Source: an uncultured Caproiciproducens sp.
GTDB taxonomy: Bacteria; Bacillota; Clostridia; Oscillospirales; Acutalibacteraceae
DNA length: 64,000 nt
Reading direction: 5' to 3'
Assembly: GCF_963664915.1 (NCBI RefSeq)
Contig: NZ_OY761810.1
Location: 248,001-312,000, forward strand
The first letter of the stretch is position 1. Every line of letters starts with the position of its first letter. The translations under genes were made by a program, and so were the position numbers. Positions 32,704-48,296 of the stretch are shown in pieces. The notes beneath the pieces were generated by a model. That model had not been told where the DNA came from and searched no databases. It was given only the letters and a program-made list of their open reading frames with translations.

Positions 32704-33828
32704 CTATCTGCATATAATATCCTCAAACTGACATGATGGATCCGCATTCAAATTTGTTAACGCCACAGCGCCCGTATTTTTCACTAGAACCGTATCCGTT
32801 ATGCGTGGGCCGCCGAATTTCGGGTCATAAATTGTCGGCAGCAGAACGTCCACCACCATATTTTCTTCTATCACATGGTCGATGCCTTTTCCCAGAATCG
32901 GATAAAATTCCGACTGGCGGATTCCAACGCCATAACCGATATGATCCATAAACATTCTGGCGTATCCATGGTCGTGAATGACTTTAAATACTTTGTCATA
33001 AATCTCGCCGGATACCGCGCCCGGTTTCAAGGCTTCCATTGCAACTTTTTGAGCCTCCATGAGCAATTTATAAATCTCAACCGACTCCGGTGCAACCTCG
33101 CCTAAAAATACCGTGCGGCACATTTTGGCTGCGTACCCTTTGTAAGACGCTCCCAAATGGATGACCACAGGCTGATTGTTATCAATCATATAATCGCCCG
33201 CGTAGGGATGCACAAGCTGCTGGCGGTCATGCCGCAGCACCTGCATACGGAATGTGCTGCCTTCGGAACCCGCCTTACGCATGGCATACTCGGCCTCCGC
33301 AAGGATTTTAGTTTCTTTTACACCCGGACGTACGGCTTCAATTGCGGCTTTCATCCCCTGTGAAAGAAATTCCGCCGCTTTTGTAATGGAAGCAATCTCC
33401 TGCTCACATTTTACAGAACGAAGCTTGTAGCAGGTCGCGGCGATATCGCCGAAGTAGATGCCCGGAAAGGTATCGCGCAGACACTGATAGTCTTTTAAGC
33501 TGATAAAATAACGCGTGAATCCTACTTTGGGATTCGGGATGCCCATTTTCAGAATCATATCGGCCGTTTTCTGGCTGACATTTTCCTTTGGAAAGAAATA
33601 CGGGACAACTTCTAAGCCCGACTGATCGCGCACATGACGTGCTTCCAGCCACAAACACAATAGTTTCGCCTCGCCCTGCGCGGGAATAATCAGGGAACCC
33701 CCTTCAATATCTTCGACGTTTGCAAAATAGATCAGGTTTTCCCTGTCCATAATAACCGCCGCATCCAGATCTGACTTTTGCAGTTCCTGCTGCAGCGCGG
33801 CAATCCTGCCCGCAATAATTTCTTTCAT
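32704..33828 (-). CDS. Creatinase/Xaa-Pro peptidase (M24)-fold hydrolase lacking metal ligands
   Basis: A 374-aa two-domain protein: creatinase-N domain (about 1-130, beginning MKEIIAGRIAALQQELQKSD) and a pita-bread catalytic domain. Residues that bind two metals in aminopeptidase P are changed: the Asp in VIHLGASYKGY is His, the next Asp is Lys (AAKMCRT), and the C-terminal Glu positions are Leu and Thr (VDVLLP, RITDTVLV). That resembles metal-free creatinase, so it may hydrolyse a small C-N substrate instead of peptides. ATG 33828 has GGAGT 8 bases upstream; a longer frame has no support. Last gene of the catabolic cluster. Confidence 0.75.
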   Translation of the reverse strand: MKEIIAGRIAALQQELQKSDLDAAVIMDRENLIYFANVEDIEGGSLIIPAQGEAKLLCLWLEARHVRDQSGLEVVPYFFPKENVSQKTADMILKMGIPNPKVGFTRYFISLKDYQCLRDTFPGIYFGDIAATCYKLRSVKCEQEIASITKAAEFLSQGMKAAIEAVRPGVKETKILAEAEYAMRKAGSEGSTFRMQVLRHDRQQLVHPYAGDYMIDNNQPVVIHLGASYKGYAAKMCRTVFLGEVAPESVEIYKLLMEAQKVAMEALKPGAVSGEIYDKVFKVIHDHGYARMFMDHIGYGVGIRQSEFYPILGKGIDHVIEENMVVDVLLPTIYDPKFGGPRITDTVLVKNTGAVALTNLNADPSCQFEDIICR

Positions 33829-33899
33829 TACAATACTCCTTCCGTCGTTAAATAACAGAAAAGGAGGCGTGACCGGCCCCCTCTTCCATTCACTATTCC

Positions 33900-35168
33900 T
33901 TACTTCGCTTCTGCTGCGTCTTTCGTTTCTGCTGCGTCGAAATCCAGTTTCTCGCAAATCAGAGAAACGACTACGCCGCCAACCAGCGCCCAGAATGCGG
34001 AACCGATATGAAGAATGGAAACTCCACTGACACCGATAACAAGAGCGGCAAATGCGCCCATTCTGAACTTCTTGGTTCCAAAACCTTCCTGAAACGCGTT
34101 AATCAGAACATTGATCATCGCAACGCCCGCAAGAACGTTAATCAGGGAAGCGGGAATCGCTTTGACAAACGCCATGGCAAAACTTGCAAAGAGGCCGAAG
34201 CACGCAAACAAAATGCCATTCAAAACGCCAGCCGCGTAACGTCCTTCCTTCTTTTCACCCGCTTCTTCCGAGGAGCAGATGGCGGTCATCGGACCAGCGA
34301 TATTCGCATTGTGGGCACCGAACATACCGGAAAGGATTCCGCCAATGCCGCTGATAACCGTCATACCGTTGATCGGCGCTTTATAACCCTGCGCCATCAA
34401 GACGCCGACAGCCTGTGCGTTTTCCGCACCGACCACAAGCGCGGCAAGCGGCACGGAAACAGACAGAACCGTCGCAATATTAAACTGGGGAACCACAATT
34501 TGCGGCGGTATGTATTTCAGGTCCACCGCGTTGGCGGCCATGCCGCCGGTGGCTAAGAGCGCTACTATACCGAAGATGAGTGCCGCGAGAACCGGCGGGA
34601 ATTTCTTAATCAACTTCGGAACAAGGAAGAAACCGATTAAAGCAGCGCCGCAGATGATCGGCGATTCACCGGTGGATGTGACAATGGCTGTGCCGAAACG
34701 CAGCATACAGCCTGCAATCATACCCATAACAATCGGAAGAGGCAGCCATTTCATTACCTTGCCCATCAATCCGGTTACCCCAAGCAAAAGCACGATAATA
34801 CCGGCCATGATAAAAGACCCGGCAGCTTCATTAAACGTAAATCCTGTCAGAGCGGCTCCCAGCATGGACGCGCCAGGAATGGAATATGCGCCGACAATTG
34901 GCATTTTGTAGTAAAGGCCCATAACTAAACTGATGAGTCCGCCTAAGACATAAATTCCAAAAAGCCATGAAACGGTTTGCTCCGTGGTGTAGCCCGCTGT
35001 TGTACTGGCTTTAATGGTGACCAGTGCAGGACCGGTACATCCGAAAATTGCTGCAACAACACCCGCGGTAATTGTCTTGGAATTAAGATTTTTGCCGAGA
35101 TCGGAAATTCCAGATTGAAAGCCGGGTCCCTTTTCAAAGAATGACAGTCCTCTACTTGCAGATGCCAT
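33900..35168 (-). CDS. BenE-family (benzoate/H+ symporter-like) transporter
   Basis: A 422-aa membrane protein with about 12 segments, matching the BenE family: early GCTGPALVTIKAST, GAYSIPGASMLGAALTGF (substrate helix) and AENAQAVGVLMAQGYKAPIN. BenE proteins import benzoate or related carboxylates with protons. In this operon the substrate is more likely the carboxylate that the neighbouring enzymes degrade. ATG 35168 is used because GGAG lies about 8 bases upstream. Between the unknown 487-aa gene and the M24-like gene, all on one strand. Confidence 0.85.
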   Translation of the reverse strand: MASASRGLSFFEKGPGFQSGISDLGKNLNSKTITAGVVAAIFGCTGPALVTIKASTTAGYTTEQTVSWLFGIYVLGGLISLVMGLYYKMPIVGAYSIPGASMLGAALTGFTFNEAAGSFIMAGIIVLLLGVTGLMGKVMKWLPLPIVMGMIAGCMLRFGTAIVTSTGESPIICGAALIGFFLVPKLIKKFPPVLAALIFGIVALLATGGMAANAVDLKYIPPQIVVPQFNIATVLSVSVPLAALVVGAENAQAVGVLMAQGYKAPINGMTVISGIGGILSGMFGAHNANIAGPMTAICSSEEAGEKKEGRYAAGVLNGILFACFGLFASFAMAFVKAIPASLINVLAGVAMINVLINAFQEGFGTKKFRMGAFAALVIGVSGVSILHIGSAFWALVGGVVVSLICEKLDFDAAETKDAAEAK

Positions 35169-35191
35169 AATCATTTCTCCTCATTAAATTG

Positions 35192-36655
35192 TTATTTATT
35201 TTTATTTAAAATAGAAATGTCCACGCCTCTTTGCTTTAGCCACTTTGGCAGAAGAACGTTGTCAACTCTGTCGCTGACTTCCGGCGCTTTTTCGATCAAA
35301 AGCTTTGCAAGGGATTCGCTGACATTCATGCCGCCCATCGCTCCGTCAAATATAATGACTTTATCCGTATCGGCAACGTTGTAAGCAAACTGCATCGCCT
35401 GTTCTGTGGATCTTGCAGTGACTGCATAATCCATATAACCGATATTCATGGAGTCGGTGTCAAACAGTTTACCCTGTTCCTCACCGACAACAACCGTCGG
35501 GATATTCTTGGAGAAGAACTCGGACGGATATCCTGTCCACGCATAATTATGCACGCACATTTTAATTGCAGGGTTCATCGGCGGTGTTTCTGGCAGAAGG
35601 GGCTTTCCGTTCTTCCTGTAGAATGCCTCGGTATACCATGTGTAAGGCGGAAGTGGTTGTTCCATATCGTAAAGATCGGTATTCGCGCCCGTAAAGTTTG
35701 CATAAATAACGCCTGCGGAGAACACATACGGTACAGGACACGGGAAATCAAGAACCGCAATACATTTGTCAACTTCTCCGAACAGCGTCATGATTTTTCC
35801 GTACAGCTGGCAGCCGACAAAGGTTGCGCGGTCATTCAGGGCATACAAATCATTGTCGCAGTCCGCACCGATAACGCCGTGCGGTCCGCAGTTCAGGAAA
35901 GCGGCGAATGCGAACTTGCTCTGAACAAATTTGGACTCAAAGATTGCGCGGGCTGTAAAGTTCGCCGCACGCGGTCCAAGGTTCTGGTGGTAAGTGCTGC
36001 GTGTTTCACAGCGTGCATAGGACATGCCGAACGGTTTTACCGCCTTATCCACCTGTCTGTGGAAATGTACCTCACGCACGTCGGTATGATGCGCATGAAT
36101 GATCCAGTCCGCATCATAAACCTTTTTAATCCCATAAAGGGTTCCGATTTCGGTTTCAATGGGAATTCCTTCGTCAATCGGAGCAACACCGATTGCTTTT
36201 CCGTTGTAATAGGTATCAAGACCGTACCGTTTGATATATTCCTCAGTTTCACGGAAACGCATACCGACGCCGGCACGCAGACGAATATCCGTGCATCCGG
36301 TTCTCGTTTCTACAACATCCTTAATCGCCTTTAAAAGTTCGGCATAAGGTTCGCCGCCGAAAAGAGTAAAACCATGGTGGGAAGCCAGCACATTCACGGA
36401 ATGCTCCGGCTTGATCATGCTCATGTCAACCTTCATCAGAGCGTCTTGTGCAGCTTTGCGGACATCTTTGATTGCATTGGGTCCGCCCGGCAGCAGTACG
36501 GGAGGAAGATCGGGAAACAGTTCACGCAGATAAAGGGAAACCATTCCCGATAATTCGGAAACACGGGTTTTCACAAGAGCCGGGTCAATACCATACTGAG
36601 AAGGTTTTGCTGAAACTGGCTTTATGGGTTCATGCATCATTTCATTATAATTCAT
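35192..36655 (-). CDS. Unrecognised 487-aa protein of the catabolic cluster
   Basis: I do not recognise the family with confidence. It has no signal peptide or membrane segment. It is rich in conserved-looking His/Cys/Asp: HAHHTDVREVHFHRQVD (about 193-209), YARCETRSTYHQ, FLNCGPHGVIGADCDND and a C-terminal IIFDGAMGGMN. The order (an N-terminal nucleotide-like GG loop, then VYDADWIIHAHHT) is faintly like DUF2088/LarA proteins, a weak guess. GGAGAGG precedes the ATG, which overlaps the stop of the Fe-S protein gene (ATGA), so it is translationally coupled to an electron-transfer partner. Confidence 0.55.
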   Translation of the reverse strand: MNYNEMMHEPIKPVSAKPSQYGIDPALVKTRVSELSGMVSLYLRELFPDLPPVLLPGGPNAIKDVRKAAQDALMKVDMSMIKPEHSVNVLASHHGFTLFGGEPYAELLKAIKDVVETRTGCTDIRLRAGVGMRFRETEEYIKRYGLDTYYNGKAIGVAPIDEGIPIETEIGTLYGIKKVYDADWIIHAHHTDVREVHFHRQVDKAVKPFGMSYARCETRSTYHQNLGPRAANFTARAIFESKFVQSKFAFAAFLNCGPHGVIGADCDNDLYALNDRATFVGCQLYGKIMTLFGEVDKCIAVLDFPCPVPYVFSAGVIYANFTGANTDLYDMEQPLPPYTWYTEAFYRKNGKPLLPETPPMNPAIKMCVHNYAWTGYPSEFFSKNIPTVVVGEEQGKLFDTDSMNIGYMDYAVTARSTEQAMQFAYNVADTDKVIIFDGAMGGMNVSESLAKLLIEKAPEVSDRVDNVLLPKWLKQRGVDISILNKNK

Positions 36656-37272
36656 TTCTGATCCTCTCCTTCCGGATTGGTATGCACAACGCGATCCAGC
36701 AGTTCTTTGTCTTCTTCGAAATAGAAACCTCTTTTGTTGTATTTTTGTACGACTTCATCAGGAAGTGTCCACGCGGTAGGCGTAATGCCATACCACTGCC
36801 AGCCGTTTTCATCGCGTTTCAGTTCGATGCCCGCCGCCTGAATCAAGCGGAGCAGCGGCTGGATGCATTCGATGGTGCATCCGGTGCGAATGCCGGTCAG
36901 CGACGAAATTTCATCAGGAGTTTTAGCCCCTCCTAAGATTGCGGCGGCCACTTCTTCGGCACGTACTCCGACGCAATAGCAAATAACCTGTTCCGGATTA
37001 AGATGCGCTTTTTCGCAAATTGCACGGATCGCTTTTGGATCATACTCGGAAACATCCACCCCAATGGTAAATGGCTCCTCCCTCTTAATCATTTTAATGG
37101 CATGGAATGGGCAGCGGGACTCGCAGTTGGTGCAGCCGCGGCACGCGTCCGCTTTTACTTTTGCCTTTTTGTCTGTCACCGAAATCGCGTAAACAGGACA
37201 TACCTTTTCACAAACTTTGCATCCCCTGCACATATCCTGCTGTACTTCGGCCAAAAGGGTTACCTTTTTCAT
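36652..37272 (-). CDS. 2x[4Fe-4S] ferredoxin fused to a BFD-like [2Fe-2S] domain
   Basis: A 206-aa Fe-S protein. Residues 1-60 hold two [4Fe-4S] motifs (CRGCKVCEKVCP, CRGCTNCESRCP). Residues about 90-145 hold a bacterioferritin-associated-ferredoxin-like [2Fe-2S] site (CYCVGV then GIRTGCTIEC). The last 60 residues are unassigned. Probably the electron donor or acceptor for the 487-aa protein that it overlaps by 4 bases. Such a fusion in a catabolic operon implies a redox step upstream of the hydratase. Confidence 0.82.
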   Translation of the reverse strand: MKKVTLLAEVQQDMCRGCKVCEKVCPVYAISVTDKKAKVKADACRGCTNCESRCPFHAIKMIKREEPFTIGVDVSEYDPKAIRAICEKAHLNPEQVICYCVGVRAEEVAAAILGGAKTPDEISSLTGIRTGCTIECIQPLLRLIQAAGIELKRDENGWQWYGITPTAWTLPDEVVQKYNKRGFYFEEDKELLDRVVHTNPEGEDQK

Positions 37273-37405
37273 CCGTTAAACCTCTCCCTTCTTATCTGTT
37301 TTTTACCGCCTGTTAAATTTCCGACCTCTGTTACACGACCTTTACTCATTCAATCAATCTCCCCCTATGCAAGCTTAGATCATTTTATTACAATTATGTG
37401 CCCTT

Positions 37406-38419
37406 TTATTTACTGTTGTTCTGAGCAAGCTCAAAAGCAACATCAATAATCATGTCTTCCTGTCCGCCGACCATGCCGCGTTTTCCCAATTCGACAAGGA
37501 TATCACGCGGGTTCAGATTGAATTTCTCAGCAGCCCGATAAGTATGAAGAAGAAAACTGGAGTAAACTCCCGCGTAACCCAGCATCAGAGACGCCGTGTT
37601 AATCACCTGCGGGCGCTGCATAATCGGCTCTACGATATTTTCAGCGACATCCATGATCCCGTACAAGTCGACGCCTGTGTCATATCCAAGACGGTCAAGC
37701 ACCGCACACAATACTTCATTCTGCGTATTTCCCGCGCCCGCACCCAGTCCGCGGCAGGTAACGTCAACATAGGAAGCGCCTTCCTCTACGGCCGCAATTG
37801 AGTTTGCGACAGAAAGCCCAAGGTTGTTATGGGAGTGGAACCCGACTGGAATATCGATTGAATTTTTCAGAACGCTGATTCTTGCACGGACATCATCCGG
37901 TACCATATGTCCTGCGGAATCCGCAAGGTTAATATAATCTGCGCCGGCGTCGACAAAGATTTTTGCCTGCTCAACAATTTTTTCCGGGGACGCCATATGG
38001 GACATCATTAAAAAGCCCACTGCCATCATGCCGATGCTCTTTGCATATTTAATATGTTGAATGGCGATATCCGCCTCGGTTACATGGGTGGCGACACGCA
38101 CGGCCTGTGCGCCGTTGTCTTTTGCTTCCTGAAGATCTTCAATGGTACCGATACCGGGAAGCAGCAAAACGGTCAGCTTTGCATTTTTAATCACTTTGCT
38201 TGCGGCTCTGAGAAGTTCCATTTCCGGCACTTTGGAAAAGCCGTAGTTGATGGAAGAGCCCGCGATGCCGTCGCCGTGGCTCAGTTCGATCAGGCTGACG
38301 CCTACTTTATCCAGCCCGCCTGCAATAGCGGTAACCTGGTCTACCGTATAGCTGTGGCTGACGGCATGACTTCCGTCACGCAGCGTTGTATCTACAATCT
38401 TAATTTTTCTTTTTTCCAT
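37406..38419 (-). CDS. 4-hydroxy-2-oxovalerate aldolase
   Basis: A 337-aa DmpG/MhpE/BphI-type class II aldolase that splits 4-hydroxy-2-oxovalerate to pyruvate and acetaldehyde. TIM barrel start IVDTTLRDGSHAVSHSYT (Arg and Asp for metal and enolate), metal ligands in HSHNNLGLSVANS, and a C-terminal communication domain. It normally forms a channelling complex with the acylating acetaldehyde dehydrogenase, encoded here 5 bases upstream. GGAGGG precedes the ATG. Length is standard. Confidence 0.93.
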   Translation of the reverse strand: MEKRKIKIVDTTLRDGSHAVSHSYTVDQVTAIAGGLDKVGVSLIELSHGDGIAGSSINYGFSKVPEMELLRAASKVIKNAKLTVLLLPGIGTIEDLQEAKDNGAQAVRVATHVTEADIAIQHIKYAKSIGMMAVGFLMMSHMASPEKIVEQAKIFVDAGADYINLADSAGHMVPDDVRARISVLKNSIDIPVGFHSHNNLGLSVANSIAAVEEGASYVDVTCRGLGAGAGNTQNEVLCAVLDRLGYDTGVDLYGIMDVAENIVEPIMQRPQVINTASLMLGYAGVYSSFLLHTYRAAEKFNLNPRDILVELGKRGMVGGQEDMIIDVAFELAQNNSK

Positions 38420-38424
38420 TGCGG

Positions 38425-39294
38425 TTAACCCTCCATGCTCAGCAGATTTTCTGCTACTTTTTCGGCAACGGCGGTCGCCGCCTGATTAATAATATCAAGA
38501 TTACCGGAATACTTCGGCAGGAAATCCCCGGCTCCTTCAACCTGAACGATAACGGTAACCTTGTTGCCGTCAACTACAGGAGGAACACGAAGCTTGTAGC
38601 CCGGCACATACGCCTGAACCTGTTTGACAATATCATTAACCGATTCGATGATTTTTTTCTCATCCGGATTCTTTACCAAACTATAAATCGTATTGGTCAT
38701 CATCATCGGCGGATCTGCCGGGTTCAGCACAATAATCGCTTTGGCTTTGTCCGCGCCGCCGACAATTTCAAGCGCTTTTCTGGTAGTTTCGGTAAATTCG
38801 TCGATGTTCGCACGGGTTCCGGGGCCTGCGCTTTTTGAGGAAAGGCACGCCACGATTTCCGTATAAGTGGAATCCGCAACCTTATTAATCGCATAGGCGA
38901 TGGGAATGGTTGCCTGACCGCCGCATGTCACCATGTTGAAGTTGTCGACATGGGCCAGATGTTCCAGATTTACACAGGGTACCACATAGGGGCCAACTGC
39001 CGCCGGTGTCATATCCATAACAATTTTACCCGCCGCTTTTAGAATCGGCGCGTTATGTAAATGCGCTTTCGCACTGGTCGCATCAAATACGATTTTAATA
39101 TCCGGGTCCGCCGCGACGGCGTCAACACCGTTCAATGACGTTTTAAAGCCCAGTCCCTGCGCTCTTTTAATCCCCTCGGACTCTACAATGCCCGCCATCA
39201 TGTGCATTTGCAGATGTTTGCTTTTCATAACCTTATACATCAGATCGGACCCGATGTTTCCGGGGCCAATGATGCCTACCTTAATTTTCTCCAT
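38425..39294 (-). CDS. Acetaldehyde dehydrogenase (acetylating)
   Basis: A 289-aa DmpF/MhpF/BphJ-type enzyme that converts acetaldehyde, NAD+ and CoA to acetyl-CoA. N-terminal Rossmann loop [18 protein letters not shown]; the catalytic Cys is in [15 protein letters not shown] (about 125-139). Slightly shorter than proteobacterial homologues (about 305-315 aa). It partners the aldolase. This is distinct from the two long acylating dehydrogenases of the microcompartment locus. Confidence 0.93.
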
Positions 39295-39315
39295 ATTGAT
39301 TTCCTTTCAAGAATG

Positions 39316-40089
39316 TTATTTGAATTTGGCTGTCACACTTCCCATACCGTAAAAACTCACAGTAAAGCTGTCGCCTTTTGCAGCCGGTTGTGCGGCGGTC
39401 AATGCACCCGCCATTACAATATTTCCTTCTTTTAGTTCAATGTTAAATGCGGAGAGTTTATTTGCTAACCAGGCAACCGATGCCGCGGGATTCCCAAGAA
39501 CCTCGGCACAAGTGCCGCTGTTGACAAGTTCGCCGTTCTTTTCCAGCGTCATGCCGGTCAGGCGCATGTCTACTTCGGCAATGGGTGTCATGCGGCCGCC
39601 GATGATAAATCTTGCACTGGAACCATTGTCCGCGATCGTATCCGCAAGCGTAATCTTCCAGTCCTTAATGCGGCTGTCAACAATTTCAATTGCGGGAACC
39701 ACATAGTCTGTGGCATTGTACACGTCTGCGACTGTTACGCCGGGACCGCGCAATGTTTTTTTCAGGCAAAAAGCCAGTTCACCCTCAACCTTCGGCTGAA
39801 TCAATTCATCAGCCGGGCAGGCTTCGCCCTCAAGCACCAGCATTTTATCGGTCAGATGTCCATAATCCGGCTCATTCACATGTAAAAGATTTTGCATGCC
39901 TTTGCTGGTAAGACCTATTTTCATGCCGATGATTTTTTCACCCGCGGCAACTTTTTTTGCCACATTTTCAAGCTGAATTGCATAAGCGTCTTCGACTGTC
40001 ATATCCGGATTGGATGCCGTCGGCATTGCAATCTGGCGGCGTTCTTTTTCTGCGTCAAACAATTCCTGCGCTGTTTTTCTGCGATCCAT
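39316..40089 (-). CDS. 2-keto-4-pentenoate hydratase / oxalocrotonate decarboxylase family
   Basis: A 257-aa member of the FAH-like hydratase/decarboxylase family (DmpE/MhpD and DmpH/XylI). Seen: KIIGMKIGLTSKGMQ, metal-ligand segment PKVEGELAFCLKKTL, and VVPAIEIVDSRIKDW. By position next to the aldolase it most likely hydrates 2-hydroxypenta-2,4-dienoate to 4-hydroxy-2-oxovalerate, but decarboxylation of a 2-oxo-hexenedioate cannot be excluded. AAAGGAG precedes the ATG. 21 bases before the acetaldehyde dehydrogenase gene. Confidence 0.88.
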   Translation of the reverse strand: MDRRKTAQELFDAEKERRQIAMPTASNPDMTVEDAYAIQLENVAKKVAAGEKIIGMKIGLTSKGMQNLLHVNEPDYGHLTDKMLVLEGEACPADELIQPKVEGELAFCLKKTLRGPGVTVADVYNATDYVVPAIEIVDSRIKDWKITLADTIADNGSSARFIIGGRMTPIAEVDMRLTGMTLEKNGELVNSGTCAEVLGNPAASVAWLANKLSAFNIELKEGNIVMAGALTAAQPAAKGDSFTVSFYGMGSVTAKFK

Positions 40090-40107
40090 AAGACCTTACT
40101 CCTTTAA

Positions 40108-41019
40108 TTAAAGATTATTTAATCCGTGATGTTCATGGTGGAAAGGCTTTTTCATTAGCTTTTCCGCAAGCATCGCGGCAATTTTTTGTGCGGTCAGCTC
40201 TTTGCTGTCATGATTTTTTAAACAGTCCAGCAGCACACCTGCCGCAAGCCGGACTTCGTCGTTTGGCCCGGGAAACGACACCAGCATGGAAGGCCCGACC
40301 GTTCCGACCGCAATGCGCACACCGTCCTTGACATGGCGGCCCGTTCCCTGCTGGAACTTTACAACGTATGGCGTTGCCGCCTGCGGGTCGATTCTGAGCA
40401 TACTTTCTACCGATTTATCTTTGTCCTCGGCGCCCACGCCGCCGGTTGTGATAATTAGCCCAAACGCGCGGGAAACCGCGTCGGACAGCTTATATTCCAT
40501 ATCGTCAAGATCATCCTCGATGATATCTCCGACGGTCACCTTGTAACCCTCGGATTCCAAAAGTTCTTTGAGATAAGGGGTGTTTGTGTCTTCGATCAAA
40601 TTCTGTTTGAGCTCAAAGCCGGTGGGGAAAATAATCGCGCGCTTGGCAATGCGCTCTTTCATTTCATCCACCATGTGGTCTACCTTCTGACTCATCTGGA
40701 TTGGATTCTCCCCTTCCAGACAGATCAGACCCAAAATTCCGTTTGAATGCAGACAGGAATCTTCGGTAAGATGAACGCCGTCCAGCTTTGAAAGCGCGTC
40801 CAGAAGCGCGCGCTCCTTGCCCACAATGTTTTCAGTGGGAATATCATTTTCCATAATATCCAGCGTAATATGGTCGGGACGCACGTCAACCACCAGCACT
40901 TTGCTGCTTTCCAGTCCCAGCACATCCGCTACCGTGTTCGCAAGCAAAGTCAGATTTACATGATCGAGTTTAATGTGGTTAACCCAAAGCTCTGTTTTTT
41001 CCAAAAGGTTTAATCCCAT
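40108..41019 (-). CDS. MoCF/MogA-CinA-like molybdopterin-binding domain protein
   Basis: A 303-aa protein. The C-terminal two thirds contain a MoCF_biosynth-type fold: GLIITTGGVGAEDKDKS and VGPSMLVSFPGPNDEVRLAA are the classical nucleotide/molybdopterin loop motifs. The N-terminal 110 residues are unassigned. Homologues cluster with molybdenum hydroxylase genes, but none is in this window. ATG 41019 (AAGGG 8 bases upstream) is preferred over TTG 41025. In a leftward series between the QPRTase-like and hydratase genes. Confidence 0.72.
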   Translation of the reverse strand: MGLNLLEKTELWVNHIKLDHVNLTLLANTVADVLGLESSKVLVVDVRPDHITLDIMENDIPTENIVGKERALLDALSKLDGVHLTEDSCLHSNGILGLICLEGENPIQMSQKVDHMVDEMKERIAKRAIIFPTGFELKQNLIEDTNTPYLKELLESEGYKVTVGDIIEDDLDDMEYKLSDAVSRAFGLIITTGGVGAEDKDKSVESMLRIDPQAATPYVVKFQQGTGRHVKDGVRIAVGTVGPSMLVSFPGPNDEVRLAAGVLLDCLKNHDSKELTAQKIAAMLAEKLMKKPFHHEHHGLNNL

Positions 41020-41049
41020 TTTCAAAACCCTTCTTTCTATCTCAATCCC

Positions 41050-41847
41050 TTATCGTTCAACATCCATTTTAATGTCCAGAAGCGGTGCGTCTACAATTTC
41101 TTTTCCAATACAAAGTATATCTATACCATAATCGAAAAATTTCGGTATCTGGTCCAGCTTCACACCGCCTGCAAAAGCAATTTGCAGCCGGCTGCATCTG
41201 CCCATTTCCTTAATCTTTGTGGTACAGCGCACCACGTCTTCCAGATTGCCTGTATCGACCATCAGAATATTGCAGCCGTTTTCCACTGCCTGAACGGTTT
41301 CTTCCTCAATGGTACAGTCCTTGCCCTTAATCTGAATGACTTTTGCCAGATCATGACAGTCACGGACGGTTTCCAGTGCTGCAGGAATCGAGCCAAGCAT
41401 GCGGATATAGTTCTTGTCGAGATAAACCATCGGCGTGCTGCTGATCCGGAAGGATGCGCCGCCCGTAACGATTGCCTGGCGAATGCCGTTCTTGATGGCG
41501 GGGGGCATCTTTTTCCACGAACCGGACACAATCTGTATTTTTCCCTGTGCAAGCCTTACTGCTTTTTGCGAGGCAGTGGCCACACCGGAAAACTTAGAAA
41601 GCGTTCCAATGATTTTCTCTTCAGAAATTGCAATTGTTTTAGGAGTCGCAACTACTTCCCCGATTGGTTCCCCGGTTTTTACGCTGTCCCCTTCGTGTAA
41701 AAACATATTGAGTTTCGCACCGATTTCTTCTGTAAGTCTTTGTGCTTCCTCTATACCGGACAGACAGCCGTCGCGCTCAGGAATTAGCAAAGCGCGAAAT
41801 TGCTTATCCGCAATATTCTTAAATATCGTATCACGAATATCTTCCAT
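41050..41847 (-). CDS. Quinolinate phosphoribosyltransferase-like protein (ModD/NadC fold)
   Basis: A 265-aa protein with the NadC two-domain fold (N-terminal swivelling domain with HEGDSVKTGEPIGEV; C-terminal barrel with FAGGVKLDQIPKFFDYGID). The quinolinate/PRPP arginine-lysine motif usually read as TRKTTPGLR is replaced by GSWKKMPPAIK, so de novo NAD synthesis is unlikely. ModD proteins of molybdate loci share the fold. First structural gene after the operator dyads and iclR, so it is a pathway or cofactor enzyme of this operon. Confidence 0.7.
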   Translation of the reverse strand: MEDIRDTIFKNIADKQFRALLIPERDGCLSGIEEAQRLTEEIGAKLNMFLHEGDSVKTGEPIGEVVATPKTIAISEEKIIGTLSKFSGVATASQKAVRLAQGKIQIVSGSWKKMPPAIKNGIRQAIVTGGASFRISSTPMVYLDKNYIRMLGSIPAALETVRDCHDLAKVIQIKGKDCTIEEETVQAVENGCNILMVDTGNLEDVVRCTTKIKEMGRCSRLQIAFAGGVKLDQIPKFFDYGIDILCIGKEIVDAPLLDIKMDVER

Positions 41848-41858
41848 AATTTACCTCT

Positions 41859-41873
41859 TTCGTCATTACCGAA
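41859..41873. promoter_or_regulatory. Operator TTCG-N7-CGAA, site 3
   Basis: TTCG TCATTAC CGAA, 12 bases upstream of the QPRTase-like start codon. Same core and 7-base spacer as the sites at 41907 and 42844. Candidate IclR-family operator. Confidence 0.6.
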
Positions 41874-41897
41874 TATCGTTCACATATATTCTGCAAA

Positions 41898-41929
41898 GAA
41901 TAGCGTTTCGCTGTTAACGAACGCTATTC
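41898..41929. promoter_or_regulatory. Extended operator dyad containing TTCG-N7-CGAA, site 2
   Basis: GAATAGCGTT ... AACGCTATTC forms a nearly perfect 30-base palindrome whose centre is TTCG CTGTTAA CGAA (41907-41921). It lies 51 bases upstream of the first structural gene and just downstream of iclR. It could double as a weak hairpin but has no T tract. Confidence 0.65.
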
Positions 41930-41949
41930 AAAATTATATAAAACTTTCC

Positions 41950-42720
41950 CTATTTGTATCCCAGTCTTTGAGAAATTTGGCGGGCACAAAACTGTACATC
42001 TTTGGCAACGGATTCAATTTTATCCATTGGCAGCCTTGCCGTCGGAGCGGAAACACTGATCGCAGCCACCGGCTGGTTTAAGTGGTTAAAGATGGGAGCC
42101 GCAACACAGCGCAGACCTGTTTCAATTTCCTCATTGTCAATCGCATAACCGCAGGAACGCACATGAAGCATCTCCTGATTCAATTCATCCAAACATGTAA
42201 TAGTATGCTCCGTATATTTTTCTAAATTACCTTTTTCAAAAAAACGTTTCAGTTCATCATCACCCAGAAATGCCAAGATCGCTTTACCCACACCGGTACA
42301 GTGCATTGGAGCCCGCTTGCCTGTCTGTGAATAAACAATCATAGCTCCGGGGGCATCCACTTTATCAATATAGACAATTTCATCGCCATAATGAGCGGCA
42401 AGATGAACAGTGGCGTTGTGCTTGCAGACAAGCTCTTCACAAAACGGTTTTGCTTCATTGCGCAAATCCATCCGCTTATATACTAAACTGCCAAGTTCAA
42501 AAAGCTTTATCCCAAGCCGATACCTCTTGGTCTGAAGATTTTGTTCCAAAAAACCTTTTGCCACAAGAGTGTTCACCAATCCGTAAACGGTACTCTTGCT
42601 TAATTTCATTTGCTCTGAAATTTCCGAAATTCCAAGCTCAACCAATTGTCCGTCAAAGCATTCAAGAATATCCAGCGCCCGAACAACAGATTGTACGATT
42701 ACGCCAGTCGCGCTTGTCAT
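41950..42720 (-). CDS. IclR-family transcriptional regulator
   Basis: A 256-aa IclR regulator: winged HTH (about 10-70, LGISEISEQMKLSKSTVYGL) and the effector domain (about 85-250, GDEIVYIDKVDAPGAMIVYS, TGVGKAILAFLG, CGYAIDNEEIETGLRCVAAP). IclR proteins commonly sense aromatic-derived or small carboxylates, matching a catabolic operon. ATG 42720 follows AAAGGG by 8 bases; a GTG directly before it is less likely. Upstream and downstream dyads suggest it controls itself and the operon. Confidence 0.9.
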   Translation of the reverse strand: MTSATGVIVQSVVRALDILECFDGQLVELGISEISEQMKLSKSTVYGLVNTLVAKGFLEQNLQTKRYRLGIKLFELGSLVYKRMDLRNEAKPFCEELVCKHNATVHLAAHYGDEIVYIDKVDAPGAMIVYSQTGKRAPMHCTGVGKAILAFLGDDELKRFFEKGNLEKYTEHTITCLDELNQEMLHVRSCGYAIDNEEIETGLRCVAAPIFNHLNQPVAAISVSAPTARLPMDKIESVAKDVQFCARQISQRLGYK

Positions 42721-42843
42721 CACAAAATCCCTTTCTGTAAAACATTAAAGCCGCGATATCCATGCAAATCGCACGCTTTGGATATTTACATTGTAAGATA
42801 TGATTTTATAAAAGTCAATCATATTCTGTATAATAGAATCAAG

Positions 42844-43089: not shown

Positions 43090-43629
43090 TTATAAAAGTG
43101 TTTCGTAAAGCTTTGGGGAAGGTTTCGGAATGACCGTCGTCTGCACCAAAAGCTCACAATCTTTTTTCGCCGCTTCCACGGCAGTTCGCACAGCACCCAC
43201 ATCACCGGTCAAAATCACAACGCCTTTTCCACCGATTGAATAGCCGATTTTTATTTCTATCAGCGTAATATTCGCCGCTTTCGCCGCCACATCCGCAGCC
43301 GTAATGGCGGAGGCGATAGAATAAAATTCAATGACGCCGACCGCCCCCGGGTTTACAATCTGGTTCGTCAGGCAAATCGCAGGAATCAGCTGAGGATGGA
43401 TATTCGGAATCAGCAGGGTGTCTACCAGATACTCTCCACCGTATTTTGCCCCTTCAGCCATAGAAACCTTAACATCCCCCGTTGTTCCCCCAATGAGCAC
43501 AATATATTTGCCGGGACAGACGGTAGACGCTTTCAGCAGCTCAACATTCGCAGCCTTTATCATATAGTCGCTTGTTTCAATTCCTCTGGCTATGCTTGAA
43601 AATTCTATCATACCGATTGCATTGCCCAT
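43090..43629 (-). CDS. pduT: Tandem-BMC shell protein PduT-like (trimer, Fe-S pore)
   Basis: A 179-aa shell protein with two BMC domains in tandem (about 1-90 and 95-179; GVIEFYSIASAITAADVAAK begins the second). Cys38 in TVCPGKY matches the PduT cysteine whose three copies hold a [4Fe-4S] cluster in the trimer pore, implying electron passage across the shell. Choosing ATG 43629 gives exactly this numbering. Follows pduS by 5 bases; the pair is the expected redox conduit. Confidence 0.9.
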   Translation of the reverse strand: MGNAIGMIEFSSIARGIETSDYMIKAANVELLKASTVCPGKYIVLIGGTTGDVKVSMAEGAKYGGEYLVDTLLIPNIHPQLIPAICLTNQIVNPGAVGVIEFYSIASAITAADVAAKAANITLIEIKIGYSIGGKGVVILTGDVGAVRTAVEAAKKDCELLVQTTVIPKPSPKLYETLL

Positions 43630-43634
43630 GCCAA

Positions 43635-44990
43635 TCACTCCTCCCTGCTCCGACGGATTACAGTGCCGGTTCCGTCTATTTTCTCAATCACGCCGTCAAT
43701 GCTCGCATGAATATTTGCGGACAATGCACCTTCCGCCGCCGTCGCCAGCAGTTCGCCTTTTGCAACGCGGTCATTGACCTGCCTGACTGGAACAGCCGGT
43801 TTACCAATATGCTGCTGGAATGGAATTACTACCATTTCCGGAGCAAGCTCATAACACTCTTTCGCATGAAGCCGGTAATAGTCCGAAATATTCAGCCGCG
43901 CCACCAGTCTGCCGGTAGGCACCTGACCGTAACGGGCGCCCTCACTCGGAACGGGGTTCCTGTTTTGTTCTACCTTGATCCCGCGTTCTCTGAGCTGGCT
44001 CTTAATGTAAATGTTCACTTTGCGCGGAGAAAGCCCCATGGGACAGGAAAACATTTCACATACGCCGCATTCTGAGCAGTTCATTGCCGTACCAAAAGCT
44101 TTTTTATATTCCTCATTGTCGGTAATGAAGGGTTCTCTGAACAGGTTACGCATCACAAGATGCGGTTTCATATCATGCCCAATCAAATTTCTTGGGCAAA
44201 GGCTTGTGCACATTCTGCACTGCACGCAGGCGCTTTTCGCCTGCAGGCGAATGCGGTGAAGCGGTATGGTTGCCCGGCGGATCAGATAATGATTTTTAGG
44301 GAGGACAATAATATTCCCCGTCGTTTTGGTAACACTCAGCCCTCTGATTTGATCAAGATCCGTAAAAACCTTCCCCATCATGGGCCCGCCTAAAATCACA
44401 TCATAATCGGAAACCACCGGCTGCGCTTTGTTGATGCACTCCGTAATCAGAGTCCCCACCGGCACATGGAGCAGGATCGGTTCTTTGACCTCACCCACAA
44501 CGGATAAATATTTATCCGTTACCGGTCTGCCCTGCAATGCATCATAAATATTCAGCATAGTCCCCACATTATCCACTACCGCTCCCACATCCAGAGGAAT
44601 TCCCCGTTCGGGCACGGACTTGCCGCAAACCAGATGCACCATGATCTGTTCGTCGCCCGCCGGGTAAAAAGTCGGCATTTCAAAGAGTTCAATTTCTGCC
44701 CCTGCTTTTTCAATTGCTTCTTTCAGCGCGTCGATTTCCGCCGTATATTTATGCTTTAAGGCAATGACGGTACGCTTTGCGCCCAAATAAGCGGAAACAG
44801 CCTGAGCAGCTTCGACAATCCTGTCGGGAAAGGTGCGCGATATGTATTTGTCCGTTTCAATCAGCGGCTCACATTCAGCGGCGTTTATGATAAAACAATC
44901 CGCTTTAGCCGAAAGCTTCACATGTGTGGGGAAGCCCGCGCCGCCCGCACCCACAACGCCGGCGTTCTTGATTGCTTCTGTAAGATTCAT
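43635..44990 (-). CDS. pduS: PduS-like RnfC-family flavo-Fe-S electron conduit
   Basis: A 451-aa protein of the PduS/RnfC type. N-terminal FMN/NADH-binding domain (GVVGAGGAGFPTHVKLSAKA, then INAAECEPLIETDKY), SLBB-like region, two [4Fe-4S] motifs (CVQCRMCTSLCP and CSECGVCEMFSCP) and a C-terminal RnfC-type barrel-sandwich segment. In B12-dependent Pdu systems PduS reduces cobalamin; here, with a B12-independent enzyme, it more likely shuttles electrons through PduT to or from the lumen NADH pool. Confidence 0.9.
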   Translation of the reverse strand: MNLTEAIKNAGVVGAGGAGFPTHVKLSAKADCFIINAAECEPLIETDKYISRTFPDRIVEAAQAVSAYLGAKRTVIALKHKYTAEIDALKEAIEKAGAEIELFEMPTFYPAGDEQIMVHLVCGKSVPERGIPLDVGAVVDNVGTMLNIYDALQGRPVTDKYLSVVGEVKEPILLHVPVGTLITECINKAQPVVSDYDVILGGPMMGKVFTDLDQIRGLSVTKTTGNIIVLPKNHYLIRRATIPLHRIRLQAKSACVQCRMCTSLCPRNLIGHDMKPHLVMRNLFREPFITDNEEYKKAFGTAMNCSECGVCEMFSCPMGLSPRKVNIYIKSQLRERGIKVEQNRNPVPSEGARYGQVPTGRLVARLNISDYYRLHAKECYELAPEMVVIPFQQHIGKPAVPVRQVNDRVAKGELLATAAEGALSANIHASIDGVIEKIDGTGTVIRRSREE

Positions 44991-45059
44991 GATCTCACCG
45001 TCCTAAAATAAAAGCATTCCGTTAGATAATTGTCACCGCGCAGCGCGCGGAAAGTTCGC

Positions 45060-45698
45060 TTATTCCCGGATGATTTGCATACCGTGTACGCGGGCATAAT
45101 CCCAAGCCTCGGAAGAAACGATGCTGTCGGCCGCTATGCGCAGAACACTTGTCTTTACAGCGTTCAGCATTGCCAAATCTCTCGCCGTTATAATCGCCCG
45201 TTTTATTTTTTCCTGCTTAACCGGCTGCTCGTTTTGACTGACAGATGCAGGCTCAGGATTGATTTTTTCGCCCAGCACAATGTCTTCCAATTGATTTGCA
45301 GAGCAGAGCACAACGCCGGAATCTTTCAAAAAATTTACTTTATCAAGCATCATGTTGTAATAAACAGCCGGAGCCGTTCTTTTATAATCGAATAGCTCAA
45401 CTTCTTCTTCAACGGCAAAAACTTTTTTCCCTTTCAGAATCGCCTGAACCGCCAGACCGGAATAAGGAGTATTTGCTGTTCCGCTGACAATCTGAACAAG
45501 CATATCGTTCGTCAGGTCGTAGAGAATCACCGCTGCAAATTCATTCATATTAAAATCGTATTTGCCTTTTAATGCGCATTCAACCTGATATTGATTACCA
45601 AGGCGCCTGCTTTCGAGCATCCGGTGACAGCAGGTGTCGTGTTTCTGAGTCAAAATCAACAGTCGCGGTTTTGAATGAATTCCCCCCTGAATGTCCAT
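45060..45698 (-). CDS. Microcompartment-associated flavoprotein-like protein (paralog A)
   Basis: A 212-aa protein: N-terminal flavodoxin/PPC-decarboxylase-like alpha/beta part (about 10-135) and, after a Glu/Gln linker, a 40-residue C-terminal segment (AIITARDLAMLNAVKTSVLR, ending HGMQIIRE). It resembles the 'ethanolamine utilization' proteins of unknown function found in clostridial microcompartment loci. The gene at 56809 has the same two-part layout. Good ribosome site (AGGAGG). Function unknown; a luminal cofactor-handling role is possible. Confidence 0.6.
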   Translation of the reverse strand: MDIQGGIHSKPRLLILTQKHDTCCHRMLESRRLGNQYQVECALKGKYDFNMNEFAAVILYDLTNDMLVQIVSGTANTPYSGLAVQAILKGKKVFAVEEEVELFDYKRTAPAVYYNMMLDKVNFLKDSGVVLCSANQLEDIVLGEKINPEPASVSQNEQPVKQEKIKRAIITARDLAMLNAVKTSVLRIAADSIVSSEAWDYARVHGMQIIRE

Positions 45699-45713
45699 AA
45701 CTCCTCCTATCTT

Positions 45714-46535
45714 CTACCTGCATTCGCAATTCATCGCGATTCCCGCAGGAGTAATCAGGAACGGATAATGCGGTTTGATCGTCTGAATTCCTGTTTCCTT
45801 TTCAAACACCTTTTCAATTCCCGTCATGCAGCAGGTTCCGCCGCAGAGATATATCGCCTGTGTATCGTCTTTTTTAATGTATTTTTTTACGATAGCGGCC
45901 ATTTTTTCAATAACTGCCTTAATAATCGGAAAAATTTCATTGTGCTTCGCATAATCCAATTTGATCTGCTCGGCTTCTTCAAAGGATATATGCATATTAC
46001 CTGATAAAACCAGCGTCAGATGCGTACCGCCGGTCGGTTCATCTTCAATTTCGACCACTTTGCCCTCTTTAAAAATGGCAAGCCCGGTTGTTCCGCCGCC
46101 GATGTCCACCACAACCCCATCGCTGATTTGAAAAATAGAATTTGCCGCTGTCGGTTCATCAAGCACATTGACAACCTCCAGCCCGGCGCCCTCCGCCACA
46201 TAAACATGGGTTCTGGTACTGGTCTGGGTGCCCGCCGGCATCGCGATTGCGCAATGGGTAAGCTCTCTGCCCAGGCGGCCTTCCAGCTTTGCCTTCAGCT
46301 CCTTAACAATCCGCTGTGCGCCCAAATAATCAACAACAACGCCGTCCCTTAGTACACGCGCCGCTTTTTTTTCACATGCGATGGGATTATTGTCTTCATC
46401 AAGGACAACAAGCACAATATACGCGGTGCCGAGGTCAACGCCCACCTTCAGTTTGCTTCCAACCGGCTGAAAGGTCGTTGTTTCCGACTCCTCCACCCGC
46501 GCCATGTAGCCATCCACTCTGTCCAAATCCATCAT
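45714..46535 (-). CDS. eutJ: EutJ-family ASKHA chaperone-like ATPase
   Basis: A 273-aa actin/Hsp70-superfamily protein: phosphate-1 loop KVGVDLGTAYIVLVVLD, phosphate-2 VVDIGGGTTGLAIFKEG and adenosine loop IYLCGGTCCMTG. It lacks a peptide-binding domain. EutJ proteins are thought to help assemble or refold encapsulated enzymes. AAAGG lies upstream, within the end of the small gene at 46538. Standard length for the family. Confidence 0.9.
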   Translation of the reverse strand: MMDLDRVDGYMARVEESETTTFQPVGSKLKVGVDLGTAYIVLVVLDEDNNPIACEKKAARVLRDGVVVDYLGAQRIVKELKAKLEGRLGRELTHCAIAMPAGTQTSTRTHVYVAEGAGLEVVNVLDEPTAANSIFQISDGVVVDIGGGTTGLAIFKEGKVVEIEDEPTGGTHLTLVLSGNMHISFEEAEQIKLDYAKHNEIFPIIKAVIEKMAAIVKKYIKKDDTQAIYLCGGTCCMTGIEKVFEKETGIQTIKPHYPFLITPAGIAMNCECR

Positions 46536-46537
46536 AA

Positions 46538-46819
46538 TCAGGCCGCCTTTCCGCTCTCTTCATGATTTTCATTCATGTTAAAACGCTCATGCCGGTCAGA
46601 CTCCTCAAAACAATGAACATCACGCAGCGGAATAGAATCCTTTTTAAAAATTGCGGCCGCATGCCCAATTTGAACGCTGCGGCCAACAATTGATTGTGTA
46701 TGTCCTATGTTCGCCAGTGAGACTAATCCTGCTTCAGCATATTTAGAATTCTTTGATACTATGTATTTTAAAGTCCCTTGGAGAAATCTCTGATATGAAA
46801 CGCATCCGATAAGACGCAT
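46538..46819 (-). CDS. Small unrecognised protein between aldehyde dehydrogenase and eutJ
   Basis: A 93-aa frame that I cannot assign. It begins inside the 3' end of the aldehyde dehydrogenase gene (52-base overlap, AGGAAA about 7 bases before its ATG) and stops 2 bases before eutJ, whose ribosome site it contains; that tight packing argues for translation. The middle (SLANIGHTQSIVGRSVQIGH) looks folded and the tail (MNENHEESGKAA) hydrophilic. It could instead be the remnant of a larger decayed gene. Confidence 0.4.
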   Translation of the reverse strand: MRLIGCVSYQRFLQGTLKYIVSKNSKYAEAGLVSLANIGHTQSIVGRSVQIGHAAAIFKKDSIPLRDVHCFEESDRHERFNMNENHEESGKAA

Positions 46820-48225
46820 CTGCGTTTCCTGCAGAATGATCTTGCACTGGTCAGACCCTCGCCGGTCGGACCCGCAATGGTAAAGGTGGTATGGCCTTCT
46901 CCGCCAACGCCGATCCCGGCATAAGACGGGGCATTTTTCACGAAGATGGTGGTTTGCAGCAGTTTGGCCATTTTTGTCAGCTTATCAACATTCTTGGAAT
47001 GCATCATGGCGGTGTGGCGGTTTCCTCTTTCCGCAACAAGCGCAAGGTCAATAGCCTCATCCACATTTTTGACCCTTACAATCGGCAGTATCGGCATCAT
47101 CAGTTCTTCCATTACAAATGGATGATCCTTTTCTGTTTCCATGATGATCGCTTTCACTTCCGGTCCTGCCTGTACTCCCAATTTCTCGAGAATATAAAGA
47201 GCGCTCTTACCTACAAACGAGGTTTTCGGGCCGCCGCCTTCTTTTCTGACCAGATCCGCAAGTTTTTGTATCAAAGCGGGATCTTTCATTTCATAAGCGC
47301 CGTTTTCCTTCATATTGCGGACCAATTCATCTGTAATCTGATCGACGGCAATGACTTCTTTTTCCGCTATGCACGGAAGATTGTTGTCAAAGCTGCACCC
47401 GTTAATAATATCAATCGCCGCTTTTTTAATATCGGCGGTTTCATCAACAACAACAGGCGGATTCCCCGCGCCGGCGCCAATCGCTTTTTTTCCCGTGGAC
47501 ATGACCAGCTTTACGATAGCCGGCCCGCCGGTGGCAACCAGCATTCTGACTTTCGGGTGTTTCATCATGACATTGGTGTTTTCAATAGACGGTTCCATAA
47601 CGGTGACAATCAGATTTTTAGGAGCACCGGCTTCTTCCAGCGCCTTGTTTATCATTGTGACCAGTTTCAGCGTGACATCCTTTGCCCTTGGATGCGGGCT
47701 GAACACAATGGAATTCCCTGCAGCCAGCATCCCTATGGAATTGCAGATCACAGTTTCCGTCGGATTCGTCGCGGGCGTAATCGCGCCGATGACCCCAAAC
47801 GGGCAATATTCAACCAGTGTTATGCCGTCGTCGCCGGACAACGCTTCTGTTGCCAAATCTTCGATCCCGGGAGATTTTTCTGCGGCCAGTCTGTTCTTAA
47901 TTAATTTGTGCGGATAATTTCCCATTCCTGTTTCGTCAACAGCCAGTCTGGAGATCAATTCAAGATTATCCTGCTTCAGCACCACATCTCTTAGTGTCTG
48001 AACATACTTTTGCCTCTCGGCCATTGAGCAGAACAAATACTGTTTTTGCGCGATATCACAGGCGTCTATTGCGTCTTCCATCGTATTGAATATTCCATAA
48101 GCGCCGTTTTTTTCTTCGTTGTTGCTTTCCGTTTGGTCTTTTTTCTCAGTACTGGATTTGTTTGCACCTATTTCGCCAAGCACCTGTTTGACCATTTTTT
48201 CAATTAAACCTGCATCTATATCCAT
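46768..48225 (-). CDS. pduP: CoA-acylating aldehyde dehydrogenase with encapsulation peptide
   Basis: A 485-aa PduP/EutE-type enzyme that oxidises propionaldehyde or acetaldehyde to the acyl-CoA with NAD+. The first 18 residues (DIDAGLIEKMVKQVLGEI) form an amphipathic helix typical of lumen-targeting peptides, followed by a charged linker (about 20-45). The catalytic Cys is in SFDNNLPCIAEKEV. The C-terminus (RRCVLSDAFHIR) extends a few residues beyond the usual end. ATG 48225 has a GGGG(T)GG site; a longer frame has none. A second paralog lies at 54097. Confidence 0.9.
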   Translation of the reverse strand: MDIDAGLIEKMVKQVLGEIGANKSSTEKKDQTESNNEEKNGAYGIFNTMEDAIDACDIAQKQYLFCSMAERQKYVQTLRDVVLKQDNLELISRLAVDETGMGNYPHKLIKNRLAAEKSPGIEDLATEALSGDDGITLVEYCPFGVIGAITPATNPTETVICNSIGMLAAGNSIVFSPHPRAKDVTLKLVTMINKALEEAGAPKNLIVTVMEPSIENTNVMMKHPKVRMLVATGGPAIVKLVMSTGKKAIGAGAGNPPVVVDETADIKKAAIDIINGCSFDNNLPCIAEKEVIAVDQITDELVRNMKENGAYEMKDPALIQKLADLVRKEGGGPKTSFVGKSALYILEKLGVQAGPEVKAIIMETEKDHPFVMEELMMPILPIVRVKNVDEAIDLALVAERGNRHTAMMHSKNVDKLTKMAKLLQTTIFVKNAPSYAGIGVGGEGHTTFTIAGPTGEGLTSARSFCRKRRCVLSDAFHIRDFSKGL

Positions 48226-48296
48226 TGATTTTCCACCCCTTATTAATAAATAGCACACTTTTTGAGCAACAGCCATCCATCATTTCATTTGCAAAT

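Follow-up and report, generated by a model that had tools for sequence, protein, structure and literature searches.

In this study, we analysed a 64,000-nucleotide stretch from an uncultured Caproiciproducens sp. (contig NZ_OY761810.1, positions 248,001 to 312,000; hereafter, the window) and propose that a cluster of ten genes therein encodes an oxygen-independent route whose substrate is a furan carboxylate and most likely 2-furoate. To this reading, with all its mutually supporting steps taken jointly, we assign a probability of roughly 55%. At its centre would stand U487, a protein of 487 amino acids (35192..36655, minus strand) that we propose to be a nickel-pincer furoate reductase which opens the ring. 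A BenE-type transporter would import 2-furoate. U487 would carry the nickel-pincer nucleotide (NPN) made by LarB, LarE and LarC, which are encoded elsewhere in the window genome, and a protein with Fe-S and BFD domains (Fe-S/BFD protein) would pass electrons to the pincer. The reduced pincer would then donate a hydride to C5 of furoate, and the C5-O bond would open by vinylogous elimination to give the dienol 2-hydroxypenta-2,4-dienoate (2-oxopent-4-enoate). From there, a hydratase would produce 4-hydroxy-2-oxovalerate, an aldolase would cleave it to pyruvate and acetaldehyde, and a dehydrogenase would convert acetaldehyde to acetyl-CoA, while a quinolinate phosphoribosyltransferase (QPRT)-like protein and a MoCF-domain protein would mature U487 or its cofactor. 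As C5H4O3 plus 2H equals C5H6O3, carbon skeleton and redox state fit. Directly observed are the genes, how they are conserved and linked in genomes, and a Lys/His motif; from sequence comparison we infer the bound cofactor, the path of the electrons, the substrate and its product, and the hydride mechanism.

That the cluster is conserved is virtually certain. Caproiciproducens faecalis and 'Amazonia massiliensis', whose U487 proteins are 95% identical, are close relatives of the window genome (3.13 Mb, one contig). The ten genes of the cluster, with an IclR regulator at one end and an M24 hydrolase at the other, all run leftward with intergenic gaps of at most 133 bases. The original prediction had placed the trio of hydratase, aldolase and acylating dehydrogenase in this cluster, together with an Fe-S/BFD protein overlapping an unrecognised 487-residue protein. 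Genes and profile matches agree with this: the overlap spans 4 bases, and U487 had no match among Pfam families and no PDB relative by sequence search. We collected 85 loci, 81 of them non-redundant. Flanks of 4 kb or more on either side were available for 54 of these 81, comprising 49 close loci (U487 at least 60% identical) and five distant ones. The loci were picked by U487 similarity and are thus a non-random sample, many of them from related genomes. Neighbours were counted by tblastn; the open reading frame (ORF) caller misses true genes that face long antisense ORFs, and the labels TRAP, aminotransferase and acyl-CoA synthetase were given to neighbouring ORFs by eye. The 49 close loci retained the Fe-S/BFD protein and the hydratase throughout, QPRT and MoCF in 48 cases each and IclR in 45; aldolase and acetaldehyde dehydrogenase were found in 39 each, M24 in 36 and BenE in 34. 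Additional neighbours were larB (20), larC (19), larE (12), an AOR-family aldehyde oxidoreductase (7), UbiD (6) and an iron alcohol dehydrogenase (5). The neighbourhood conservation that had been proposed as a check on the prediction is thus borne out.

Including the window genome, U487 occurred in 5 of 118 relatives searched (1 of 98 genera) and in 27 of 398 genomes of the phylum, one of these hits being a fragment at a contig edge. Short peptide patterns recovered 55 loci from the GTDB species collection, mostly in Clostridia and other Bacillota but also in a spirochaete and in deltaproteobacterial metagenome-assembled genomes (MAGs). When 395 genomes from the phylum of one deltaproteobacterial MAG were searched by profile, 11 gave matches, several with distant paralogues, and a scan of viral contigs returned no U487 relative. 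Recurrence of the gene set across these groups is far above chance. In two loci (L007 and L008) of G008, a close relative of the window genome, U487 is split over two overlapping frames, reflecting either a pseudogene or a sequencing error.

An affiliation of U487 with the NPN (LarA) superfamily is very probable in our view, on account of an invariant Lys/His pair, a weak LarA profile match and nearby NPN-synthesis genes. The original prediction had missed this link. Lys207 and His223 form the sole Lys-x15-His pair of the window protein and are kept in 52 of 52 members (an alignment that leaves out the repeats L113, L114, L115 and L121 and the broken genes L119 and L120). The same spacing is found in LarA (the NPN-binding Lys184 and the nickel-binding His200; 10/10), in a second LarA group (5/5) and in 9 of 13 members of a DUF362-like set, at least three of which are probably wrong frames. 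K184 and H200 of LarA interact with the NPN cofactor, according to an excerpt of PMC7583248. Besides, ten residues before the lysine, where LarA has its catalytic His174, 38 of 38 close U487 members have His, and 11 of 14 distant members have Tyr. A likeness of U487 to LarA was first noticed by eye; when aligned by hhalign against 15 LarA proteins, U487 scored 35.2, compared with a maximum of 26.0 among 60 column and 60 block shuffles, 17.9 for the reversed alignment and 16.2 and 16.7 for two unrelated cluster families. The LarA sets comprised 10 and 5 ORFs picked by first letters from a set of loci; U487 alignment A1 held the window protein plus 34 of 55 U487 rows, and alignments A2 and A3 the window protein plus 27 of 43 rows each. 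Other candidate kin were rejected: the second LarA group alone (19.6) scored at noise level, DUF362-like proteins (17.1) did not rise above noise despite the shared spacing, and a PDB search with the U487 profile yielded a chance match (AMP nucleosidase, E 0.85).

In 21 of 54 loci, the sequence retrieved around U487 included at least one of larB, larC and larE, and one example of each scored over its curated cut-off. Across the phylum, larC was present in 26 of 27 genomes with U487 versus 199 of 371 without it (Fisher p 3e-6, kinship not corrected). Among 42 chosen U487-positive genomes, 39 had larC and 39 had larB over cut-off. Two searched genomes without U487 also have larB and larC, and these genes are therefore not specific to U487. 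The larC and larB genes of the window genome are some 0.96 Mb away from the cluster, with a larE-like ORF adjoining; a second, partial larC and larB pair sits apart from these, beside a lactate-racemase-like gene (G000:C1:2231605-2236331). Another genome carries, apart from its intact copy, a short U487 fragment beside larC (G214:C2:801958-803305; 49 residues, E 4e-9).

The most constant partner of U487 is the Fe-S/BFD protein (36652..37272, minus strand; two Fer4 motifs plus Fer2_BFD), whose gene adjoins that of U487 and which is present in 54 of 54 loci (49/49 close, 5/5 distant). One relative of 706 residues (L147:11074-13191, minus strand) contains a Fer4_20 plus Pyr_redox_2 module between its ferredoxin and BFD parts. 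Such a combination is the make-up of NAD(P)H-dependent flavoproteins, and this architecture would fit electron delivery to U487. We thus think it probable that U487 is fed electrons by the Fe-S/BFD protein.

With regard to the downstream pathway, the aldolase (37406..38419; TIGR03217 510 bits, cut-off 286) and the acylating (acetylating) acetaldehyde dehydrogenase (38425..39294; TIGR03215 439 bits, cut-off 282) both exceed their thresholds, while the hydratase-like protein (39316..40089; all minus strand) finds its best family in TIGR03220, the 2-oxopent-4-enoate (2-hydroxypenta-2,4-dienoate) hydratases, its exact substrate being presumed from this match. A 2-oxoacid:ferredoxin oxidoreductase of the pyruvate or indolepyruvate type (PFOR/IOR) was found in 0 of 39 loci with the aldolase and in 9 of 10 without it, and no aldolase over cut-off was detected in seven of seven genomes tested from aldolase-free loci. 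The PFOR example tested lay over its cut-off (1668 vs 911 bits). Judging from these profiles, 4-hydroxy-2-oxovalerate likely meets one of two fates: cleavage to pyruvate and acetaldehyde, or oxidative decarboxylation, for which the enzyme class suggests 3-hydroxybutyryl-CoA as the product. Either outlet can draw on 4-hydroxy-2-oxovalerate, which backs this compound as what the hydratase forms and, by extension, 2-oxopent-4-enoate as what U487 forms; we regard the latter assignment as a good bet. The hydratase accompanies U487 in every one of the 49 well-flanked close loci. The previously predicted oxygen-independent supply of the hydratase seems probable, and the 487-residue protein is likely its source, by reductive attack.

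As to the substrate, we favour 2-furoate with moderate confidence, because HmfF-type UbiD, AOR and alcohol dehydrogenase genes accompany some loci. UbiD was represented by 15 ORFs in 13 of 81 non-redundant loci, among them 7 of the 54 well-flanked ones. Of five ORFs typed out of these 15, four (from L040, L078, L069 and L053) matched HmfF 6h6v at 548-638 bits and 6h6x at 527-618 bits, the next enzyme outside this pair reaching 187-226 bits. The entry 6H6V is PtHmfF (excerpt of PMC8988006), and the HmfF of P. thermopropionicum interconverts furan-2,5-dicarboxylate and 2-furoate (excerpt of PMC6644310). BenE (33900..35174, minus strand; PF03594 275 bits; TIGR00843 239 bits, cut-off 203), the proposed furoate importer, never co-occurred with UbiD in the 54 loci (BenE 34, UbiD 7; p 4e-4). 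Four UbiD loci instead featured a carrier family whose tested member is of the MatC/CitMHS type, as expected if furandicarboxylate were imported and then decarboxylated. The AOR and iron alcohol dehydrogenase genes near some loci could turn furfural and furfuryl alcohol into furoate; oxidation of furfural is described, in part of PMC13328260, for a tungsten oxidoreductase from a gut bacterium. Acyl-CoA-synthetase-like ORFs appeared in eight loci and adjoin several distant U487 copies; in the close family they were confined to L030 and L056, away from the core. Being rare and off-core there, they give no reason to expect CoA activation in the close family.

The QPRT-like protein (41050..41847, minus strand; QRPTase N and C domains) and the MoCF-domain protein (40108..41025, minus strand; PF00994, MoCF_biosynth) are probably maturation factors of U487 or its cofactor, given their sequences and distribution, the latter perhaps acting on metal or nucleotide. 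The five distant loci kept the Fe-S/BFD protein in 5/5 cases, QPRT and MoCF in 3/5 each and the hydratase in 0/5. As three of these loci maintain both proteins without the hydratase, QPRT and MoCF appear tied to U487 rather than to the downstream pathway. Moreover, the two are fused into one protein in two Desulfovibrio MAGs (L069 and L070). The nearest solved domains of the MoCF protein are of the gephyrin/Cnx1/MogA type. Its tail contains at least four His within the last 30 residues in 12 of 28 relatives (four in the window protein), and we discarded a His-rich tail as a universal nickel store as only these 12 have it. The QPRT-like protein matches the NadC fold (3c2e, E 4.6e-28) with TRKT changed to WKK and KDNH to DKNY. 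With these substrate motifs altered, phosphoribosyl pyrophosphate-dependent QPRT chemistry on quinolinate was likewise rejected. The notion of QPRT as a substrate enzyme thus finds little footing, its occurrence with distant U487 proteins and its fusion to MoCF fitting maturation. The M24 protein (32704..33828, minus strand; PF00557, PF01321; 374 residues from an inner ATG) is an accessory hydrolase that, as had been predicted, lacks metal ligands: read by eye against 1wy2, all five positions that we take to be the prolidase ligands are replaced (D>H, D>K, H>Y, E>L, E>T). With a presence in just 36 of 49 close loci, it finds no support as the core ring-attacking enzyme.

The tenth gene encodes the IclR-type regulator (41950..42723, minus strand; PF01614 177 bits, PF09339). 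Directly upstream of the cluster (43090-48276), there is a leftward, microcompartment-like group of PduS-like, shell-like, EutJ-like and aldehyde dehydrogenase ORFs, as judged by eye. A PduS-like gene also adjoins the cluster in L028, L060 and L076.

The predicted absence of ring-cleaving oxygenases was examined for two families. In the 3.13-Mb window genome, no LigB extradiol dioxygenase was found, and the single Rieske-type match was below threshold (E 0.007, 17.2 bits vs cut-off 24.9) and interrupted by an internal stop. This search covered LigB and Rieske proteins and stopped short of other oxygenases, among them the intradiol and the type I extradiol enzymes.

Several observations weigh against the proposed route. 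The hhalign probability for LarA was just 17.5%, and with ten LarA proteins the score dropped to 26.1 (1.9%), no better than the top shuffle. Neither Lar_N nor DUF2088 of Pfam matched U487. At low threshold, the profile alignment put the LarA Lys184 region near Arg215 of U487 instead of Lys207, and the assignment of Lys207 and His223 therefore rests on spacing and invariance. The NPN-binding Arg75 of LarA falls at about F96, in an uncertain part of our alignment that does not keep the arginine; at the position of the catalytic His108, 38 of 38 close members have Met or Leu. The NPN reactions covered in excerpts of PMC11770544, PMC12611868 and PMC7583248 are racemisations or epimerisations, and none of those is a net reduction. 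Exceptions also exist to the co-occurrence with NPN-synthesis genes (G423, G514 and G555 for larC; G514, G555 and G826 for larB). One of these, Breznakiella homolactica (G514, L031; record titled complete), has all ten genes, with LarB and LarC not over cut-off. It is a real exception, for which the cofactor would either come from elsewhere or be of another kind. The window cluster has no adjoining larBCE, UbiD or AOR. The hydratase (297 bits, cut-off 409) and the IOR example (566 vs 651 bits) stayed below their cut-offs. Finally, UbiD is rare in close loci, and that of L140 (a distant-paralogue locus) is not HmfF-like. The genome of this latter locus (G591, from the phylum of a deltaproteobacterial MAG) has four U487 paralogues, and the locus itself holds two Fe-S/BFD-U487 pairs next to the UbiD and a zinc-type oxidoreductase, possibly for other ring substrates.

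The same logic might apply to another ring. Pyrrole-2-carboxylate or thiophene-2-carboxylate, whose C5 skeleton fits equally well, could be opened reductively to 2-oxopent-4-enoate with loss of ammonia or sulfide. The window locus, with BenE and M24 and no furan-specific neighbour, is compatible with this, as is an aminotransferase-like ORF in five loci, four of them from Moorella. However, an HmfF-type decarboxylase in four of the five UbiDs tested, as well as AOR and iron alcohol dehydrogenase that fit furfural and furfuryl alcohol, argue for a furan, and by eye no further gene for the amino group is evident among the neighbouring families, so that we consider these rings unlikely. An N-heterocycle attacked hydrolytically or reductively by the QPRT-like and M24-like proteins, as variously envisaged in the original prediction, appears more improbable still. 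Both proteins are in the cluster, and known relatives with QPRT and creatinase-type folds act on nitrogen compounds; yet M24 is missing from 13 of 49 close loci, and QPRT, its NadC substrate motifs altered, follows U487 into loci with other neighbours. What survives from that prediction is the oxygen-independent entry into the hydratase step, with 2-furoate as the likelier substrate.

Alternatively, no ring might be opened at all: U487 would then act on a 2-hydroxy acid as a LarA-like racemase, epimerase or dehydratase, and the Fe-S/BFD protein would serve only to keep its pincer active. Inversion of 2-hydroxy acids is indeed what characterised NPN enzymes do (excerpts of PMC7583248, PMC12611868 and PMC11770544). 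Against this stand the lack of a His108 equivalent, an HmfF-type UbiD that a hydroxy acid would leave unexplained, and a strict Fe-S/BFD partnership that, along with the NAD(P)H-type module of L147, goes beyond the needs of a racemase. We therefore give this explanation as low a chance as that of a pyrrole or thiophene substrate.

The reductive opening of 2-furoate would set this cluster apart from the systems it resembles. With the LarA (DUF2088) superfamily, U487 shares the Lys-x15-His spacing, the His at Lys-10 of its close members, the weak profile match and larBCE neighbours, whereas it differs in going unrecognised by Lar_N and in its His108 position, its Fe-S/BFD partner and its degradative-pathway neighbours. 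The lower meta-cleavage pathway, with genes of the dmpEFG or mhpDEF type, has the same trio of hydratase, aldolase and acylating dehydrogenase; here, in contrast, the cluster includes no oxygenase, the upstream protein is unrelated, and nine of the ten loci that lack the aldolase have a 2-oxoacid:ferredoxin oxidoreductase in its place. In common with the aerobic furfural and hydroxymethylfurfural (Trudgill) pathway (hmfABCDE and hmfFG of Cupriavidus basilensis), some loci have an HmfF-type UbiD and 2-furoate as putative node. The Trudgill route proceeds from furoyl-CoA to 2-oxoglutaroyl-CoA (excerpt of PMC6604932), whereas the presumed product here is 2-hydroxypentadienoate and, in the close loci, acyl-CoA-synthetase-like ORFs are off-core.

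Reports from 1983 and 1991 (cited in PMC6604932) describe growth on furfural without oxygen, and the citing review, from 2018, states, in the portion available, that the oxygen requirement limits the known pathway and that other furan routes of anaerobes are still undiscovered. Among the matches listed in our literature search on anaerobic furoate or furfural genes, NPN chemistry on rings or aromatics, and the aldolase in anaerobes, none describes this cluster, as judged by title and the start of the abstract and with subscription papers mostly outside the scope. More tentatively, U487 may found a new class of NPN enzymes in which electrons supplied from outside drive the reduction and opening of a heteroaromatic ring. 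Neither oxygen nor, in the close family, CoA activation would be needed; QPRT and MoCF would assemble an altered and perhaps adenylated pincer, and distant U487 families would perform related chemistry on other rings. If our proposal is true, the NPN cofactor would gain a net redox role, in line with a remark in an excerpt of PMC7583248 that another hydride-mediated reaction might be run by those LarA relatives in which some catalytic residues are missing. For anaerobic furan degradation, the cluster puts names to genes, points to carriers in culture and offers a direct assay. Furans act as inhibitors in plant-biomass hydrolysates, for which an oxygen-free route would be of practical use, and furoic acid is a compound of plant waste whose ring, as genome comparison predicts, may be opened by oxygen-avoiding bacteria.

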